The notes under the pieces were generated by a model, which was not told where the DNA came from, searched no databases, and worked only from the letters and a program-made list of their open reading frames with translations. DNA of 64,000 nt, taken from positions 105,956 through 169,955 of the forward strand of contig JAIUPD010000012.1 of assembly GCA_020161615.1 (NCBI GenBank), written 5' to 3'. Below, piece after piece: positions 57,466-64,000 of the stretch. This DNA comes from Pseudomonadota bacterium. Lineage in GTDB: Bacteria > Pseudomonadota > Alphaproteobacteria > Rhodobacterales > Rhodobacteraceae. Position numbers and translations under genes: made by a program. The first letter of the stretch is position 1, and each line of letters opens with the position of its first letter.

Positions 57466-58124
57466 GCGGGGCGATCGACGGGATCGAGGGTGTCCGCGCC
57501 GTGGTCTGGGATTTCGACGGCGTTCTCAACCGCGCCGGGCGGCCCGACAAGGCAGGGATTTTCCCCTGGCAGGCCAAGGTTGCCGGGGATTTGGGAATCG
57601 ACGCGGCGGCGATGGCGCAGGCGGTCTTTCGGCGCGACAAGGCCGCCTTGATCACCGGCAAGGACGATGTGCTGGACCGTATCGCCGACTGGGCGCGGGG
57701 GGCGGGCGTCGATCTGGACCCGGAGGATGTGCTGGAGATCTGGTTCGAGGCCGACCACGACCCCGATCCCGAACTGGACCGCGTGCTGGGCCTGCTGGCC
57801 GAGGCGGGCGTGGTGCAGGTGATCCTGACCAACAACGAAGCCCGCCGGGCCCGCTGGATCGCCCAGGACGCGGGCTGGGCAGAGCGGGTCGATGCGATCT
57901 TTGCCTCGGGCGAGATCGGGGCGATGAAACCCGCGGCCGAGGCCTATGCGGCGGTCGAGGCGGCGCTGGACATGGCGCCGCACGAGATCCTGATCATCGA
58001 CGACACGCCCGGCCATGTCGAGGCGGCCGAGAAACGCGGCTGGCTGGGCTGGGACTATCAGGCGGGCGGGGCCATGGCGCTGGTGCAGGCCCTGATGCCG
58101 CTGCTGCTGAAAGCGGGCGAATAG
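57462..58124 (+). CDS. HAD-like hydrolase of the his operon
   Basis: 220 residues from ATG 57462, overlapping hisG. Motif I VWDFDGVLNR (DxD with Asp nucleophile and acid), motif II ILTNNEARRA, motif III Lys in GAMKPAAEAY, motif IV IIDDTPGHVEAA. All four HAD phosphatase motifs are intact. Position in a his operon suggests histidinol-phosphate phosphatase, but HAD histidinol phosphatases usually differ, so this is speculative; cap resembles phosphoglycolate-type phosphatases. Confidence 0.85.
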   Translation: MSGAIDGIEGVRAVVWDFDGVLNRAGRPDKAGIFPWQAKVAGDLGIDAAAMAQAVFRRDKAALITGKDDVLDRIADWARGAGVDLDPEDVLEIWFEADHDPDPELDRVLGLLAEAGVVQVILTNNEARRARWIAQDAGWAERVDAIFASGEIGAMKPAAEAYAAVEAALDMAPHEILIIDDTPGHVEAAEKRGWLGWDYQAGGAMALVQALMPLLLKAGE

Positions 58125-58262
58125 GGGTTCGGGCCAGTTTTCAAGCCCTTACGCCCTTGACCGGCGGGTAGGTGCGCCCGTAGCATGTGCCGCTGCCGTT
58201 AACCATGGCGCCTATCCATTGCCAGACAGGGCGCTTGGACGCCCTATCCAGAGGGTATTTCG

Positions 58263-59396
58263 ATGAACCATTCCAGAAGGGCGATGCTTGGCATCGCGTT
58301 GACCCTCGCTGCGGGCCCGGCGCTCGGGCAGCGGGTTGTCGAGTTCGATGTCACGCCGCGGACGTTCTCGCACAGCGATTTCTCGACGGTCGAGGGGCGG
58401 CGTGCGGTGCAGCCCTTGCCCTTCGCCGTGTTCGGTGACAGCAGCCCGAACCGGATGCGCAGCGATACCGGCGCGCCAAGCGTCACGCCCGGCCGGCCGC
58501 CGGTGGCGGGTTCGACCGAGCGGGCGCAAGCGCTCTATCCCGATCAATGGGCCCTTCTGGGCTCGCGCCCGACGCGCGAGGGCGTCCGCCCGCCCGCCGG
58601 CGATCAGGCGGCGCCCGACGGCGGGGTCGATTTCCTGGTCGCGCCTGGCGCCGGCTCCAACCGCAGCAATTTCGCGGGAACGACCGGCGTCTTCACCCAG
58701 TATTGCGAGAATTGCGACGCGCAGAACGTGAACTACCCGCAGATCGCCATCGGGGCGCTGTTCTTCGACATCGCCAGCGGCGGCAGCGCCAGTTGCTCGG
58801 CCTCGGTGATCGGCAACAATACCATCGTGACGGCGGCGCATTGCTGCTACGACCACGATGCCGAGGAGAACAACAGCAACTTCACCTTCGTGCCCGCCTA
58901 TCGTGACGGGGCGGCGCCGGTGGGGGCCTTTTCGGGCATCCGGGCGCGGATCCTTGGCGCCTATCGCAACAATCCCGGCCGGTCGAACGACCTGTGCCTG
59001 ATCCGTCTGGCCCCCGATGCCGGGGGCAATCAGGTCAGCTTCTATACCGGCTGGCTGGGGACCGCGGAGAACTTCGATTATTACCAGAACATGCATGCCG
59101 TGGGCTATCCGGGCAATATAGGCGGCGGACAGTTCCAGGAAGTCTGCACCGCTACCGGCAGCCGTCCGCCCCAGGGGTGCGAGCGCAACAACGTCCTGAA
59201 CATGGGCTGCTCGATGACCTATGGTTCCAGCGGCGGGCCCTGGATCATCTCCTATCGCAATGGCAACTTGGTCAATTCGGTGGTCAGCGGCTATGACAGC
59301 GTCAGCTGTACCGGCGATTTCGGCACCGTGTTCAACGGCCCGCGCTTTGCCTCGAACAACCTGGGCACGCTGTGCGATTCCCCCGGCTGGTGCTGA
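58263..59396 (+). CDS. Secreted trypsin-like serine protease (S1)
   Basis: 377 residues from ATG 58263 (no good ribosome site seen; GGTATTTCG upstream). Signal peptide (MLGIALTLAAGPALGQ). The first ~150 residues are a pro-like or linker region. The catalytic triad is His193 (VTAAHCC), Asp243 (RSNDLCLIRL) and Ser323 (YGSSGGPW). Several Cys pairs (CENC, CSAS, CSMTY, CTGDF, final C) suggest disulfides. Secreted to periplasm or medium; substrate unknown. The gene follows the HAD gene by 138 bases in the same direction. Confidence 0.9.
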   Translation: MNHSRRAMLGIALTLAAGPALGQRVVEFDVTPRTFSHSDFSTVEGRRAVQPLPFAVFGDSSPNRMRSDTGAPSVTPGRPPVAGSTERAQALYPDQWALLGSRPTREGVRPPAGDQAAPDGGVDFLVAPGAGSNRSNFAGTTGVFTQYCENCDAQNVNYPQIAIGALFFDIASGGSASCSASVIGNNTIVTAAHCCYDHDAEENNSNFTFVPAYRDGAAPVGAFSGIRARILGAYRNNPGRSNDLCLIRLAPDAGGNQVSFYTGWLGTAENFDYYQNMHAVGYPGNIGGGQFQEVCTATGSRPPQGCERNNVLNMGCSMTYGSSGGPWIISYRNGNLVNSVVSGYDSVSCTGDFGTVFNGPRFASNNLGTLCDSPGWC

Positions 59397-59432
59397 GGGG
59401 CGTTTGACCGCCGGCTGGCGCTGTCCCCCGGG

Positions 59433-59858
59433 TCAGCGCCAGCCGAATTCCGCCAGCGCCTCGGCCAGTTCGGGCGGCAGCGTCTCTTCGCCCGGACGTG
59501 CCTCGGGCAGGTCCCGCGGCGCATCCTCGGGCTGGAGATAGCGCCAGCCCTGGAAAGGGCGGCGCGGGGCCGGTTCGGTGCGGATCAGCGCCGGGTCGAA
59601 GACCAGCGCGCATCGGCTGATGCCATCGGCGCCCTCGACCGGTTCAAGGCGCAGAATGCGTTGGCGGACCAGCACATTCCCCTTGATGATCCAATAGATC
59701 GAGCCGCCGTCCAGCACCTCGTCGCCGCGCTTGGGCCACATGCGGGTGACATGCCGGGGCAGGCCGCCCGGCAGTTCGGCGGCGCGCTGGCGCTGCCATA
59801 GGGCGAGGTCCTCGACCGAGTCGCAGCCGACGCAGAGTTTGAGAATATGCAGGGCCAT
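59433..59858 (-). CDS. DUF1489 protein
   Basis: 141 residues. MALHILKLCVGCDSVEDL and RHVTRMWPKRGDEVLDGGSI (two separate conserved stretches) are the start and core of DUF1489, a family restricted to alphaproteobacteria, function unknown. It has Cys9 and Cys12. No signal peptide. Divergent from nrdJ. Confidence 0.9.
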   Translation of the reverse strand: MALHILKLCVGCDSVEDLALWQRQRAAELPGGLPRHVTRMWPKRGDEVLDGGSIYWIIKGNVLVRQRILRLEPVEGADGISRCALVFDPALIRTEPAPRRPFQGWRYLQPEDAPRDLPEARPGEETLPPELAEALAEFGWR

Positions 59859-59906
59859 GCCCCCTTATCCCTCTGGCCGGGCGCCGCCGCAAGGCCCCGG
59901 GCGGCG

Positions 59907-59935
59907 TTGACGATAGGGGTATCGCGGACTATGTT
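59907..59935 (+). promoter_or_regulatory. Candidate nrdJ promoter
   Basis: TTGACG (59907-59912), 17 bases, TATGTT (59930-59935). Near-consensus, 80 bases upstream of nrdJ. No cobalamin riboswitch was recognised in the following leader. Confidence 0.55.
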
Positions 59936-60014
59936 GCCTGAGGGCGCGGTCATGCTTTGTTCATGCCGCGCCCTTGCCCTTTCCATCCCCTTCCGAGCCC
60001 GACAGGACCCTCCC

Positions 60015-62501
60015 ATGAGCCGCTTTTCCGCCCCCATCGCCGAGCAGATCTGGGACATGAAATACCGGCTGAAAGACGCCTCGGGCCGGGCGCTGGACGC
60101 CACGCTCGAGGATTCGTGGCGCCGGGTGGCGCGCGATCTGGCCTCGGTCGAGGCCGCGCCCGAGGTCTGGGAAGAGCGATTCTATGCCGCGCTCGAGGAT
60201 TTCCGCTTCCTGCCCGCCGGGCGGATCCTGGCCGGGGCCGGGACCGGGCGGCAGGTGACCTTGTTCAACTGTTTCGTCATGGGGACTATCCCCGACAGCA
60301 TGGGCGGTATCTTCGAGATGCTGAAGGAGGCGGCGCTGACGATGCAGCAGGGCGGCGGCATCGGCTATGATTTCAGCACCATCCGGCCCAAGGGCGCGGC
60401 GGTGCATGGGGTGGCCGCCGATGCCTCGGGGCCGCTCAGCTTCATGGATGTCTGGGATGCGATGTGCCGGACGATCATGTCGGCGGGCTCGCGCCGCGGG
60501 GCGATGATGGCGACCATGCGCTGCGATCACCCGGATATCGAGGATTTCATCGCCGCCAAGCAGGATTCGGCCCGGCTGCGGATGTTCAACCTGTCGGTGC
60601 TGGTGACCGACCCGTTCATGGAGGCGGTGAAAGCGGACGGCAACTGGGATCTGGTGTTCGACGGAAGGGTCTATCGCACGCTGGCTGCGCGCGATCTGTG
60701 GAACCGGATCATGCGCGCGACCTATGATTACGCCGAGCCGGGGGTGATCTTCATCGACCGCATCAACGCCGCCAACAACCTGCGCTATGCCGAGACCATC
60801 GCCGCCACCAACCCCTGCGGCGAGCAGCCGCTGCCGCCCTATGGCGCCTGCCTGCTGGGCTCGATCAACCTGGCGCGGCTGGTCAAGGCGCCCTTCGAGG
60901 CGGGCGCGGGGATCGACACGGCCGAGCTGGACGAGCTGGTGCGGACCGCGGTGCGGATGATGGACAACGTGGTCGATGCCTCGAAATTCCCGCTGCCGCA
61001 GCAGGCGGCCGAGGCTGCCGCCAAGCGCCGCATCGGGCTGGGGGTCACCGGGCTGGCCGATGCGCTTCTGATGATGGGACTGCGCTATGGCTCGGACGAG
61101 GCGGTGGCGCAGACCGAGGCCTGGATGCATGCCATCGCCCGCGCCGCCTATCTCGCCTCGGTCGATCTGGCGCGCGAGAAGGGGGCCTTTCCCCTCTTCG
61201 ACGCCGAAAAATATCTCGCTTCGGGCACGATGCAGGCGATGGATGCGGATGTACGCGAGGCGGTGCGCGACCACGGCATCCGCAACGCGCTGCTGACCTC
61301 GATCGCGCCGACCGGGACCATCAGCCTTTACGCGGGCAACGTGTCCTCGGGCATCGAGCCGGTCTTCGCCTACGCCTATCGCCGCAAGGTGTTGCAACCC
61401 GACGGCTCGCGCACCGAGGAAGAGGTCGTGGATTACGCCGTCTCCCTCTGGCGCGAGAAATTCGGCGACACGCCCTTGCCCGAGCATTTCGTCAGCGCGC
61501 AGACGCTGGCGCCGATGGATCATGTGAAGATGCAGGCGGCGGCGCAGAAATGGATCGACAGCTCCATTTCCAAGACCATCAACTGCCCCGAGGATATCGG
61601 CTTCGAGGCGTTCAAGGACGTCTATCTGGCGGCCTGGGACATGGGCTGCAAGGGCTGCACCACCTACCGGCCCAATGCGGTGACGGGCTCGGTGCTGAGT
61701 GTGACCGGCAGTTCGAGCGATGCCGAGACAGTCTATCGGCAAATTCGCGCGGTCGCGGACAAGCAGAATCTCAGTGACAGGGCCCTTTCGCTGAAAGCTG
61801 GCCTCGGTGCAGGCTACGTGCACTCGATAAAGGCAGAGGGCAAGTCACCGACTCTTAGTTCTCTGAACAAGATTGCCGAGGCCCTTGGTGTCACTTTTTC
61901 CGAGTTGGTCGGCGGCGCATCGGGCACCCGCGAAACCATCGTTCGGGGGGGCGGCGAACCCGACCATCCGCACGGTGACGTGATCTACCTCGCCGAGCCG
62001 CTGGACCGGCCCGAGGCGCTGGAGGGTCAGACCTACAAGCTGAAATGGCCGGTCAGCGAGCACGCGATCTACATCACGGTGAACGATATTGTCGTCGGCG
62101 GGCGCCGGCGCCCCTTCGAGGTGTTCATCAATTCGAAGAACATGGAGCATTACGCCTGGACCGTGGCGCTGACGCGGATGATCTCGGCGGTGTTCCGGCG
62201 GGGTGGCGATGTGAGTTTCGTGGTCGAGGAACTGAAAGCGGTCTTCGACCCGCGCGGCGGCGCCTGGATGGGCGGGCGCTACGTGCCCTCGATCCTGGCG
62301 GCGATCGGCGGCGTGATCGAGGAGCATCTGGTCGCCATCGGCTTTATCGAGGGCGCGGGGCTGGGGCTGAAGTCCGATCCCAAGGCAGCAGCGGTGGCGG
62401 GGGGGCGCCCGGCGGCTTGCCCCTCGTGCGGGGCCTATGAGCTGGTGATGATCGAAGGCTGCATGACCTGCCGCGCCTGCGGTCATTCCAAATGCGGCTG
62501 A
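60015..62501 (+). CDS. nrdJ: Adenosylcobalamin-dependent ribonucleotide reductase (class II) with inserted HTH domain
   Basis: 828 residues from ATG 60015 (the longer frame adds 56 unlikely residues). Class II core: FLPAGRILAGAGTGRQVTLFN with an active-site Cys region, ATNPCGEQPLPPYGACLLGS, LTSIAPTGTISLYAGNVSSG (quoted as APTGTISLYAGNVSSG), and GCKGCTTYRPNA. The C-terminal TSCxxC tail (CPSCGAYELV, CMTCRACGHSKCG) reduces the active site. Makes deoxynucleotides from ribonucleotides with or without oxygen. Anomaly: residues ~573-634 (61731-61918) of the linker before the 'GDVIYLAEPLDRPEAL' part are a complete XRE-type helix-turn-helix. Function of this domain is unknown; the catalytic parts look intact. 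Confidence 0.95.
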   Translation: MSRFSAPIAEQIWDMKYRLKDASGRALDATLEDSWRRVARDLASVEAAPEVWEERFYAALEDFRFLPAGRILAGAGTGRQVTLFNCFVMGTIPDSMGGIFEMLKEAALTMQQGGGIGYDFSTIRPKGAAVHGVAADASGPLSFMDVWDAMCRTIMSAGSRRGAMMATMRCDHPDIEDFIAAKQDSARLRMFNLSVLVTDPFMEAVKADGNWDLVFDGRVYRTLAARDLWNRIMRATYDYAEPGVIFIDRINAANNLRYAETIAATNPCGEQPLPPYGACLLGSINLARLVKAPFEAGAGIDTAELDELVRTAVRMMDNVVDASKFPLPQQAAEAAAKRRIGLGVTGLADALLMMGLRYGSDEAVAQTEAWMHAIARAAYLASVDLAREKGAFPLFDAEKYLASGTMQAMDADVREAVRDHGIRNALLTSIAPTGTISLYAGNVSSGIEPVFAYAYRRKVLQPDGSRTEEEVVDYAVSLWREKFGDTPLPEHFVSAQTLAPMDHVKMQAAAQKWIDSSISKTINCPEDIGFEAFKDVYLAAWDMGCKGCTTYRPNAVTGSVLSVTGSSSDAETVYRQIRAVADKQNLSDRALSLKAGLGAGYVHSIKAEGKSPTLSSLNKIAEALGVTFSELVGGASGTRETIVRGGGEPDHPHGDVIYLAEPLDRPEALEGQTYKLKWPVSEHAIYITVNDIVVGGRRRPFEVFINSKNMEHYAWTVALTRMISAVFRRGGDVSFVVEELKAVFDPRGGAWMGGRYVPSILAAIGGVIEEHLVAIGFIEGAGLGLKSDPKAAAVAGGRPAACPSCGAYELVMIEGCMTCRACGHSKCG
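61731..61918 (+). other. In-frame XRE/CI-like helix-turn-helix domain inside nrdJ
   Basis: Residues ~573-634 read VYRQIRAVADKQNLSDRALS, LKAGLGAGYVHSIKAEGKSP, then TLSSLNKIAEALGVTFSELV: five-helix HTH_3 pattern with LSDRALSLKAGL (helix 2) and GYVHSIKAEG (recognition helix), like alphaproteobacterial phage CI/S24 repressors. Hand count gives 34 of 60 G+C (57%) in each of the windows 61741-61800 and 61801-61860, below the flanking sequence. No intein or splicing residues are present. Confidence 0.85.
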
Positions 62502-62622
62502 GGGGGCTTTCGGCCCTGCGCTGAAGGGGACCCCTCCCTGCCGGCCGAAGGGTTGACCGACAAACGCCGGGGCCGAGGCGCCGGCGCTCTTGGCTGGCGG
62601 GCGTCCCGGCCGCAGGTCCGCC

Positions 62623-62967
62623 TCAGCTTTTGGCCATATCCCCGGCCTCGGCCCAGTCGTAAAGGTCCGAGAGGATCCCGCGCAGCCCCTCGCCCCGGGG
62701 GCTGAGGACATAGCTGACCTCGCGCGGGTAGACATTGCTTTCGACCCGCCGCACCAGGTCGCGCCCGGTCATGCCCGCCAGCCGCTCGGTCAGGACCTTG
62801 GGCGAGATGCGCGGCAGCAGCGCCTGCAGTTCCGAATAGCGCTTTGGCCCGCCCGAGAGATGCCAGAGCAGGAGGGCGTTCCAGCGGTGGCCCAGAAAGC
62901 CCAGCCAATCCTCGGCCAGGCATTCGTCAGGTCGGCAGACGGTCGTTTCGGGCATCGGGCTTCCCAT
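62623..62967 (-). CDS. HxlR-family transcriptional regulator
   Basis: 114 residues from ATG 62967; ATG 62955 (GGGAAG upstream) is also possible and would drop four residues. HxlR winged helix: GHRWNALLLWHLSGGPKRYS, SPKVLTERLAGM, VSYVLSPRGEGL. N-terminal cysteines in VCRPDECLAEDW resemble the redox-sensing Cys of QorR/HypR-type members. Divergent from an NAD(P)-binding gene, the usual layout for a redox-sensing repressor controlling an oxidoreductase; that gene is disrupted here. Confidence 0.85.
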   Translation of the reverse strand: MGSPMPETTVCRPDECLAEDWLGFLGHRWNALLLWHLSGGPKRYSELQALLPRISPKVLTERLAGMTGRDLVRRVESNVYPREVSYVLSPRGEGLRGILSDLYDWAEAGDMAKS

Positions 62968-63042
62968 TTGGTTAGTCCTGAGTCGCTGTGATTTCAGCGC
63001 GCGGGGGACCTGCTTCAGGTCCGGTAGCGCAAGGAATGCGAC

Positions 63043-63228
63043 ATGAACAGGATACTCATCATCGGCGGCTATGGCCATGTCGGCCAAAAGATTGCCCGGC
63101 GTCTGATCGCCGCGGGCCGGTCGGTGACGATTGCCGGGCGCGATGCGGGCAAGGCCGCGGCGGCGGCGGGGCGGCTGGGCTGCCAGGGGGTGGCGCTGGA
63201 CCTTGCGCGTCCCGACAGCTGGCCGGCG
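63043..63228 (+). pseudogene. NAD(P)-binding oxidoreductase, truncated at its 5' part
   Basis: From ATG 63043 the frame reads RILIIGGYGHVGQKIARRLI, IAGRDAGKAAAAAGRLGC and VALDLARPDSW, an intact Rossmann start of the saccharopine-dehydrogenase/NmrA-like type. At about 63221-63229 the host-like sequence ends; the frame continues as Pro/Ser/Arg-rich nonsense (to 63363) because foreign DNA in another frame begins. The rest of the gene is not in this window. It would have been the divergent partner of the HxlR gene. Confidence 0.8.
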
Positions 63229-63722
63229 CCGACAAGGCCGCCGCCACCCTCCGCCGCGAGGTTGTCGCCAACTCCTCCGACACCCGGTGGGCGCACCTGC
63301 GCGAGCTTAACGCCGCCGCCGACAGCCTCGCCACCACGGCGCAGCTCTGGGCCAGCCCCGTGACCGTCCTCGCCCGCGCCGGGCTCGGGACCCCTGAGCG
63401 CAGCGCGTACCAGCAGCAGCTTGACGGCTCGGGCATCGTGGAGCTGAAGAACGCGGCGCTCCTCGCGGTGGCGACCGGCAACAAGGTCCTCGGGGCCGCC
63501 CTCGTCAGCATCATCGACCGGATGCCCGCCCGGTCCCGCCCGGTCAGCGCGCAGGACCTCGCGGACAAGCTGGTGGGCGAGGAGACGCGGAAGGTGCAGG
63601 ACGCCATCACCGCCGTGAAGCTCGCGGCGCAGCGCGCCATCAACCGAAACAGGGAGTGGGAGGCCGGGAAGGTCCGCCCGCTCGACCGGGTGAAGCTCGC
63701 CCTGAACAGCAACAAGGAGTGA
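63225..63722 (+). pseudogene. 5'-truncated phage-like coding sequence
   Basis: In the frame ending at TGA 63720-63722 a coherent protein tail of about 165 residues is seen: ATLRREVVANSSDTRWAHLR, ATTAQLWASPVTVLARAGL, AALLAVATGNKVLGAALVSI, RKVQDAITAVKLAAQRAINR. There is no start codon; it begins at the junction with the oxidoreductase. Codons favour CTC/GTC over CTG, unlike the neighbours. The helical, charged, small-gene style and tight spacing to the next frame look phage-like, but I recognise no named family. Confidence 0.6.
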
Positions 63723-63726
63723 TTCA

Positions 63727-63861
63727 ATGGCCCTCTTCCTCGTGACCCGCCCCAAGGGCGCTGAACACCTCCGCAACGCCTCCGGCCTGCACGCCGCCAT
63801 CGTGGACGCGGCCAGCGGCCCGGCGGCCATCGCCGCCGCCAACGCCCTCGCGCCGCACTGA
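63727..63861 (+). CDS. 44-residue phage-like protein, probably truncated by IS insertion
   Basis: ATG 63727 with AAGGAG seven bases upstream, four bases after the previous stop. Reads MALFLVTRPKGAEHLRNASG then AAIVDAASGPAAIAAANAL and APH. Its TGA (63859-63861) coincides with the likely first bases of the IS (TGACCTGCTCCCC), so the natural C-terminus may be lost. Confidence 0.5.
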   Translation: MALFLVTRPKGAEHLRNASGLHAAIVDAASGPAAIAAANALAPH

Positions 63862-64000
63862 CCTGCTCCCCTTGGAGTCCGCGTTTATAGGTTAGCTCTG
63901 TTCAGAGTTTGGTCCTCTTGTGACCGTTGGTGATACTCCCGCGGGGTGAGGCCGTCGAGGCTCGAATGCGGGCGGTGGTGGTTGTAGTCGTCGCGCCATG
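63859..64000 (-). mobile_element. IS3-family insertion sequence, right edge cut by window
   Basis: The left terminal sequence TGACCTGCTCCCCTTGGAG resembles IS3-type inverted repeats. The minus strand then encodes the end of an OrfB transposase, stop TAA at 63885-63887. The rest of the element lies outside the window. Confidence 0.75.
63885..64000 (-). CDS. IS3-family transposase OrfB, C-terminal end
   Basis: The 37 visible residues read WRDDYNHHRPHSSLDGLTPR, EYHQRSQEDQTLNRANL: the YNxxRPHSSLxxLTPxEY ending is diagnostic of the IS3-family integrase (DDE) domain, just after its last catalytic Glu region. Gene starts beyond base 64000. Confidence 0.9.
   Translation of the reverse strand, partial: WRDDYNHHRPHSSLDGLTPREYHQRSQEDQTLNRANL

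Follow-up and report, generated by a model that had tools for sequence, protein, structure and literature searches.

Exchangeable helix-turn-helix domains occupy a recurrent slot in the linker of the class II ribonucleotide reductase NrdJ in Rhodobacteraceae

Here, we show that the linker of a short, accessory ribonucleotide reductase (RNR), NrdJ, contains a slot in which many of the sampled Rhodobacteraceae carry a helix-turn-helix (HTH) domain, while most leave it empty. More importantly, these domains, which we refer to as heads, were acquired, lost, and replaced on many occasions, whereas the adjoining catalytic barrel stayed put. The gene analyzed in detail lies in a 64,000-nt stretch of DNA from a member of this family (referred to as the window). 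A first-pass annotation of the window had framed the HTH of this gene as one captured domain; the HTH proved real, but it is not a single case, because the slot recurs in dozens of genera with very unlike HTHs. We suggest, with about an even chance of being correct, that NrdJ provides a slot for exchangeable repressor-type, putative DNA-binding heads in an accessory reductase, and that these heads are kept diverse by selection.

The window gene nrdJ (60015..62501, + strand) has 828 codons, the HTH included, and its frame is unbroken across the HTH region. Based on profile matches, it is of the TIGR02504 type; the score of 600.6 bits against the curated equivalog model NCBIfam NrdJ_Z (TIGR02504) lies above the cut-off of 399.95 bits, and the protein is predicted from its family to be an adenosylcobalamin-dependent ribonucleoside-diphosphate reductase. 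Pfam recognizes an N-terminal all-alpha domain, the barrel (residues 85-551), and a TSCPD domain (residues 673-772), and the C-terminal cysteines and TSCPD are as in HTH-less relatives. The N-terminal all-alpha domain and the barrel are shared with other class II NrdJ proteins, including the solved B12-dependent RNR 1xje; in contrast to 1xje, window NrdJ has an extra HTH in its linker, and the sequence match to 1xje extends no further than residue 561, where the slot lies. The organism encodes a second, 1224-aa B12-dependent reductase (PRK07562, 2224.6 bits; G000:C12, L275:145-3816) on the same contig outside of the window, and the short NrdJ is, therefore, not its sole reductase. NrdA gave no match at 1e-100 in this organism. 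A link between the HTH and the class I reductase NrdA was considered and dropped because NrdA was found in 44 of 384 genomes overall and in four (G159, G175, G295, and G395) of the 43 HTH-bearing genomes, as judged from a by-eye comparison of two lists covering 384 genomes for NrdA and 394 for the HTH.

The linker of window NrdJ holds a complete Cro/CI-type (XRE) HTH, as the first-pass annotation had proposed. It spans residues 577-631 (61743..61907, + strand), and matches to Pfam HTH_3 score 27.6 bits in the full protein and 32.6 bits in a 93-aa segment (cut-off 23). AlphaFold predicted an HTH fold of five helices for the isolated segment, with a mean pLDDT of 73 and values of 79-88 in the HTH blocks. 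The full-length model was poor overall (mean pLDDT 55.2) and was used for the HTH block alone, which had a pLDDT of 85-94 and was flanked by stretches below 50; accordingly, the HTH is modeled as sitting in a flexible tether. In Foldseek searches with the segment model, the XRE/CI-type proteins SinR, C.AhdI, DdrO, and P22 c2 were matched with a probability of 1.00 and with E-values no better than 2e-3; target-normalized TM scores were 0.88 for C.AhdI, 0.82 for SinR, and 0.78 for P22 c2. By sequence, the PDB matches to a profile of 24 HTH linkers belong to the same group. The five-helix fold is that of P22 c2, 434 CI, SinR, DdrO, and C.AhdI; unlike in these proteins, the HTH here is an internal domain of an enzyme. 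The region of the recognition helix, helix 3 (GAGYVHSIKAE; 61806..61838, + strand), was placed from the segment model, and L131, whose head is the nearest to that of the window gene, differs from it at two residues. The insert has no splicing or endonuclease domain based on Pfam analysis of the window protein, and no such families are among those listed for two linker sets (29 and 31 linkers), which argues against an intein or a homing element.

Alignment with the nrdJ gene L003 of genome G010, which lacks an HTH and is 95% identical in the core, delimits the tract that differs. The alignment breaks after 61695 and resumes at ~61980, and the exchanged linker cassette (61696..61979, + strand) comprises 284 nt in the window versus 53 nt in L003. 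Thus, the window allele is a local swap of the whole linker, from 53 nt to ~284 nt. The extent originally given for the insertion, 61731-61918, does contain the HTH; however, the exchanged tract is wider. Among 60 genomes, 17 were from same-genus relatives, of which 14 were readable, and all 14 had a short linker of other sequence, supporting the earlier idea that the HTH was acquired relative to the same-genus relatives. An EPxxPHGDV tail lies at 61956..61982 (+ strand), and its PH closes the linker in 51/51 parsed HTH alleles. This tail is absent from the 14 same-genus relatives, and its PH ends the linker in 46 of 73 parsed HTH-less alleles, a ratio that is not a frequency because many HTH-less alleles were retrieved by the tail motif itself. 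Downstream of nrdJ, similarity to G010 (L276) continues over 62503-63231 and then ends inside a gene starting at 63043, which is a 338-aa open frame in G010; the frame at 63240-63719 has no PHROGs match, and to the eye, the end of the window resembles an insertion sequence. Probably, either a mobile element inserted or the DNA was rearranged just downstream of nrdJ (window 63232-64000).

How widespread is the slot? We searched 394 genomes of the family (approximately one per genus). An nrdJ match was present in 356, and in 41 of these, the match continued across the HTH without a break, a count obtained with one query carrying the window's own HTH, which more divergent heads may escape (G160 and G359 gave partial matches). 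Together with G026 and G159, which were confirmed additionally, at least 43 of the 356 nrdJ-bearing genomes have an HTH in the slot. Thirty of the 41 loci were fetched; all 30 contain an HTH-like insert, and HTH_3 was found at E≤0.01 in 27 of the 29 that were aligned. Among 289 genomes searched class-wide, 115 had an nrdJ match, 111 of them outside of the family; the match spanned the HTH without interruption in the window genome and in no other of the 115. More divergent heads may likewise have escaped this search, which used the same query. A DNA pattern representing the conserved tail motif (PHGDV..Y..PL.RP) matched at least 119 places in named genomes. Among the 80 of these loci that were listed, 32 have an HTH, 46 share the flanks but lack the domain, and two are cut by the locus edge; 29 of 31 scanned filled loci matched HTH_3 at E≤0.01. 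Their titles name Rhodobacteraceae, Rhodobacterales, or genera that we take to belong to Rhodobacteraceae, and five name just Alphaproteobacteria. The site of the HTH is constant, i.e., between SVLSVSEEK and APEV..EPxxPHGDV, and no other domain type was seen in the slot by eye among the listed tail-pattern loci; in L145, the linker is longer (50 residues) without containing another domain.

Some loci have additional peculiarities. In L018 (G026), the frame of the HTH-bearing nrdJ is broken soon after the HTH, giving a 752-aa frame followed by a separate 240-aa frame; this copy is either decaying or the break is a sequencing error. The nrdJ genes of G025:C2 and G051:C101 have ~1.1 kb of extra DNA in frame near query residues 265-270, resulting in frames of 1179 and 1163 aa, and these are possibly inteins at one site. 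Finally, draft genome G221 has two nrdJ matches (G221:C223 and G221:C147), one of which runs through the HTH, while the match on the other contig covers residues before the HTH; the second match is either a real second copy or contamination.

The heads are far more diverse than the enzyme that carries them. Among 51 distinct parsed heads (L018 and the HTH-bearing L125 are outside of this set), the median pairwise identity, calculated relative to the shorter sequence, is 22%, whereas the adjoining 400 residues of the barrel are 84% identical (200 random pairs). At one score threshold, the heads fall into three broad types (23, 18, and 7 heads) and three singletons; for this clustering, the tails were cut, because BLAST with the tail kept merged all 51, and single linkage still yields broad types. 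On an NrdJ tree of 109 genes (FastTree with SH-like support and the linker omitted; 15 of the 124 parsed non-duplicate genes were excluded as too short), there are at least 23 changes in HTH presence, of which 12 are forced by well-supported branches, and 38 changes in type; 53 of the 109 genes came via the tail motif, and HTH-bearing genes are, therefore, over-represented. Presence is nevertheless clustered compared with shuffled data (23 changes versus a mean of 35.7; 0/500 shuffles as low), as is type H0 (6/500 shuffles) but not H1 and H2. The clustering of presence and of H0 indicates that part of the pattern is inheritance. Exchange is seen in the supported sister pairs of differing type, L051/L122, L058/L060, L056/L154, and L035/L124, in which the barrels are 89-94% identical while the local identity of the HTHs is 18-38%. 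In the pair L104/L166 of the Marivita group, the barrels are 98% and the HTHs 28% identical, and the heads belong to one broad type at the clustering threshold. Similarly, in each of two genera with two genomes each, the heads differ between both species. The NrdJ head nearest to that of the window, in L131, is 61% identical with a barrel identity of 85%, and the L131 barrel is not near that of the window on the tree.

Where did the heads come from? Among the matches listed, free-standing relatives of the window HTH have at most 48% identity and include a phage hypothetical protein (47%), a plasmid XRE protein (48%), and XRE-cupin-like frames (40-44%); all of its PHROGs matches are transcription regulators or repressors. 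For two other HTH types, phage matches are at 39-46% and mostly annotated as CI repressors. The best identity to a phage record of any head tested is at most 47%, and none of these heads closely matches a known phage repressor. The proposed likeness of the window HTH to phage S24/CI repressors therefore holds in part: two other HTH types have phage CI proteins among their best phage matches, while the window HTH resembles mixed XRE regulators. The window protein has no S24 peptidase or CI C-terminal domain; Pfam at E≤1 gives only the HTH and the RNR domains. Of the ten distinct NrdJ heads of type B, six group in a clade (95/82) that excludes 22 rows of free-standing regulators, and the remaining four lie outside of that clade; a single clade of all ten was not rejected (p-AU 0.40). 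On the NrdJ tree, the seven type-B rows account for seven changes. This separation from free-standing regulators together with the scatter on the NrdJ tree suggests that cassettes with their heads move between nrdJ genes. Ultimately, the heads are perhaps from phages or other mobile elements. A viral origin of the HTH-bearing NrdJ as a whole was rejected: no viral contigs carry the tail motif, and the NrdJ of the Synechococcus phage S-ESS1 aligns in one piece and has no HTH. R7L likewise aligns in one piece. NrdJ proteins of Rhodobacteraceae phages are among the nearest viral relatives of window NrdJ (~54-66% identity in most rows listed), and most of 30 listed phage NrdJ records align as two segments that together span 86-87% of the query, as would fit an absent HTH.

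Base composition and substitution patterns distinguish the heads from their barrels. The window HTH has a GC content of 57.7% compared with 66.5% in the barrel (GC3 of 0.64 versus 0.89), in agreement with the 57% given in the first-pass annotation, and in 48 of the 51 parsed genes with an HTH, the GC content of the HTH is below that of the barrel in the same gene. In 46 pairs of heads with at least 50% identity, pN was 0.14-0.39 and pS 0.51-0.94. Thus, similar heads are under purifying selection, and the HTH is held as a protein. The frame was open in all 51 parsed genes; however, parsing demanded an open frame. In 45 of the 46 pairs, the head exceeded the barrel in synonymous difference, as expected if the heads have a separate, older history, although codon bias may lower the barrel value. 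Because heads were less similar than barrels in every one of the 46 pairs, no freshly transferred cassette was caught. In the similar pairs, helix 3 is the most conserved block (0.67 versus 0.47-0.64 in the other blocks). Its DNA-facing positions, which we assigned by alignment with the 434 repressor structure, are at 0.63, hardly above the 0.62 of helix 4, and over all 51 heads they are among the more variable positions. The net charge of the heads is on average +0.5 (range, −7 to +6). Instead of DNA binding in NrdJ, the purifying selection might reflect the need to fold, or it might have acted before capture.

Upstream of the window gene, a σ70-like promoter (TTGACG-17-TATGTT; 59907..59935, + strand; hexamers assigned by eye) has a perfect palindrome with 5-bp arms, CGATAGGGGTATCG (59911-59924, + strand), in the spacer between the −35 and −10 hexamers. 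From its sequence, CGATAGGGGTATCG is a possible candidate operator. This palindrome is missing upstream of L131, the gene with the nearest head; the corresponding promoter spacer in the HTH-less L003 is of different sequence. Palindromes with arms of at least 6 bp are no more common upstream of HTH-bearing nrdJ genes (11/47) than of HTH-less ones (17/58), and the longest arms do not differ (Mann-Whitney p 0.54), in a test that considered simple palindromes and is blind to other operator forms. The suggestion that the protein regulates its own gene is, therefore, not borne out, and we rejected NrdR-like autoregulation via the nrdJ promoter, as we found neither an operator common to same-type heads nor an enrichment of palindromes. 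A riboswitch or other Rfam RNA was rejected based on zero matches at the gathering score in window 58000-64000.

Searches of an open-access library, all aimed at ribonucleotide reductase, gave no paper describing a DNA-binding domain within this enzyme or a metabolic enzyme whose slot is refilled with different repressor heads. Type I restriction HsdS proteins combine a conserved scaffold with exchangeable target-recognition domains that are kept diverse. NrdJ resembles HsdS in its conserved scaffold and swapped, diverse modules; however, the scaffold here is a metabolic enzyme, and the DNA specificity of the heads is putative. PMC3653736 describes inteins and introns as recurrent insertions in RNR genes, and its main text nowhere uses the terms helix, DNA-binding, or repressor. 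In contrast to the insertions described there, the HTH stays in frame, lacks a splicing or endonuclease domain, and is hypervariable.

How could this diversity arise and be maintained? We suggest that homologous recombination in the conserved nrdJ flanks would swap the linker cassette between alleles, and that a free-standing XRE/CI regulator would occasionally be captured anew. The HTHs of NrdJ, which we take to be oligomeric, would then form a DNA-binding head with sequence specificity. Different heads might recognize the operators of different foreign elements, i.e., temperate phages, plasmids, and conjugative elements, so that rare head types would be favored and types swapped, and the enzyme would in effect carry a repressor head for its host. 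We prefer this binding of foreign operators over host tethering, protein-level control, and baggage because selection for differing specificities is expected to produce one scaffold with many unlike, frequently swapped heads, and because changing targets would naturally be supplied by mobile elements, which themselves use CI-type heads. As a function of the NrdJ head, it is tentative, and we give it less than an even chance. The fuller model, in which the enzyme is a chassis for an allele-swapped, immunity-like repertoire at the level of the population, each allele having another phage or mobile-element repressor specificity, with recombination in nrdJ and an advantage of rare types, is more speculative, and we consider it doubtful.

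Several other explanations deserve consideration. The HTH might bring NrdJ to the host chromosome, e.g., to replication or repair sites or to promoters, for local dNTP supply or moonlighting regulation. The intact fold under purifying selection fits this idea, as does a confidently modeled domain amid low-confidence linkers that is perhaps free to bind; however, a fixed host target does not predict that unlike HTHs are swapped between sister genes, palindromes are not enriched in nrdJ promoters, and the nearest same-type gene, L131, lacks the window palindrome, making this explanation unlikely. The HTHs in SinR/SinI and HipB/HipA proteins serve as interaction or oligomerization modules, and the head could similarly gate the cysteine tail or couple NrdJ to a partner, with DNA binding lost or irrelevant. 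Its placement in the tether between barrel and tail, the near-neutral mean charge of the heads, and the HTH-like domains in the phosphonate enzymes PhpD, MPnS, and HppE among the PDB matches, which are not known to bind DNA, are all compatible with such a role. Nevertheless, swapping very unlike heads would break a specific partnership, and helix 3 is, by a small margin, the best conserved block in similar pairs; we regard this role as improbable.

The heads may also be tolerated baggage, in which case small foldable domains would enter a permissive linker by recombination and persist neutrally until lost. The patchy presence with many gains or losses, the frame break just after the HTH in carrier G026, and the second, 1224-aa B12 reductase, in the presence of which the short NrdJ may be less constrained, speak for this; that the fillings are HTH-like, with HTH_3 in 29 of the 31 scanned tail-motif loci among those listed, and that pN is well below pS speak against it. 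Neutral baggage, which had been raised in the first-pass annotation, is thus disfavored by purifying selection and repeated exchange, and we assign it a low probability. Alternatively, the HTH could be ancestral to the family and evolve rapidly in place, with empty slots representing losses. While presence is more clustered on the tree than by chance and the PHGDV tail is common to HTH-bearing and many HTH-less alleles, sister genes with barrels 89-94% identical have HTHs of different types, the short linkers of the 14 readable genomes among the 17 same-genus relatives are of other sequence, and the whole linker of the window gene is unlike that of its nearest relative; we consider ancestral presence very improbable.

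If the heads bind DNA, then nucleotide supply would be tied to the control of mobile elements or genes in these bacteria. Moreover, natural swaps exist in the form of near-identical enzymes with different heads or none, making a direct test of the role of the head and of its diversity possible.
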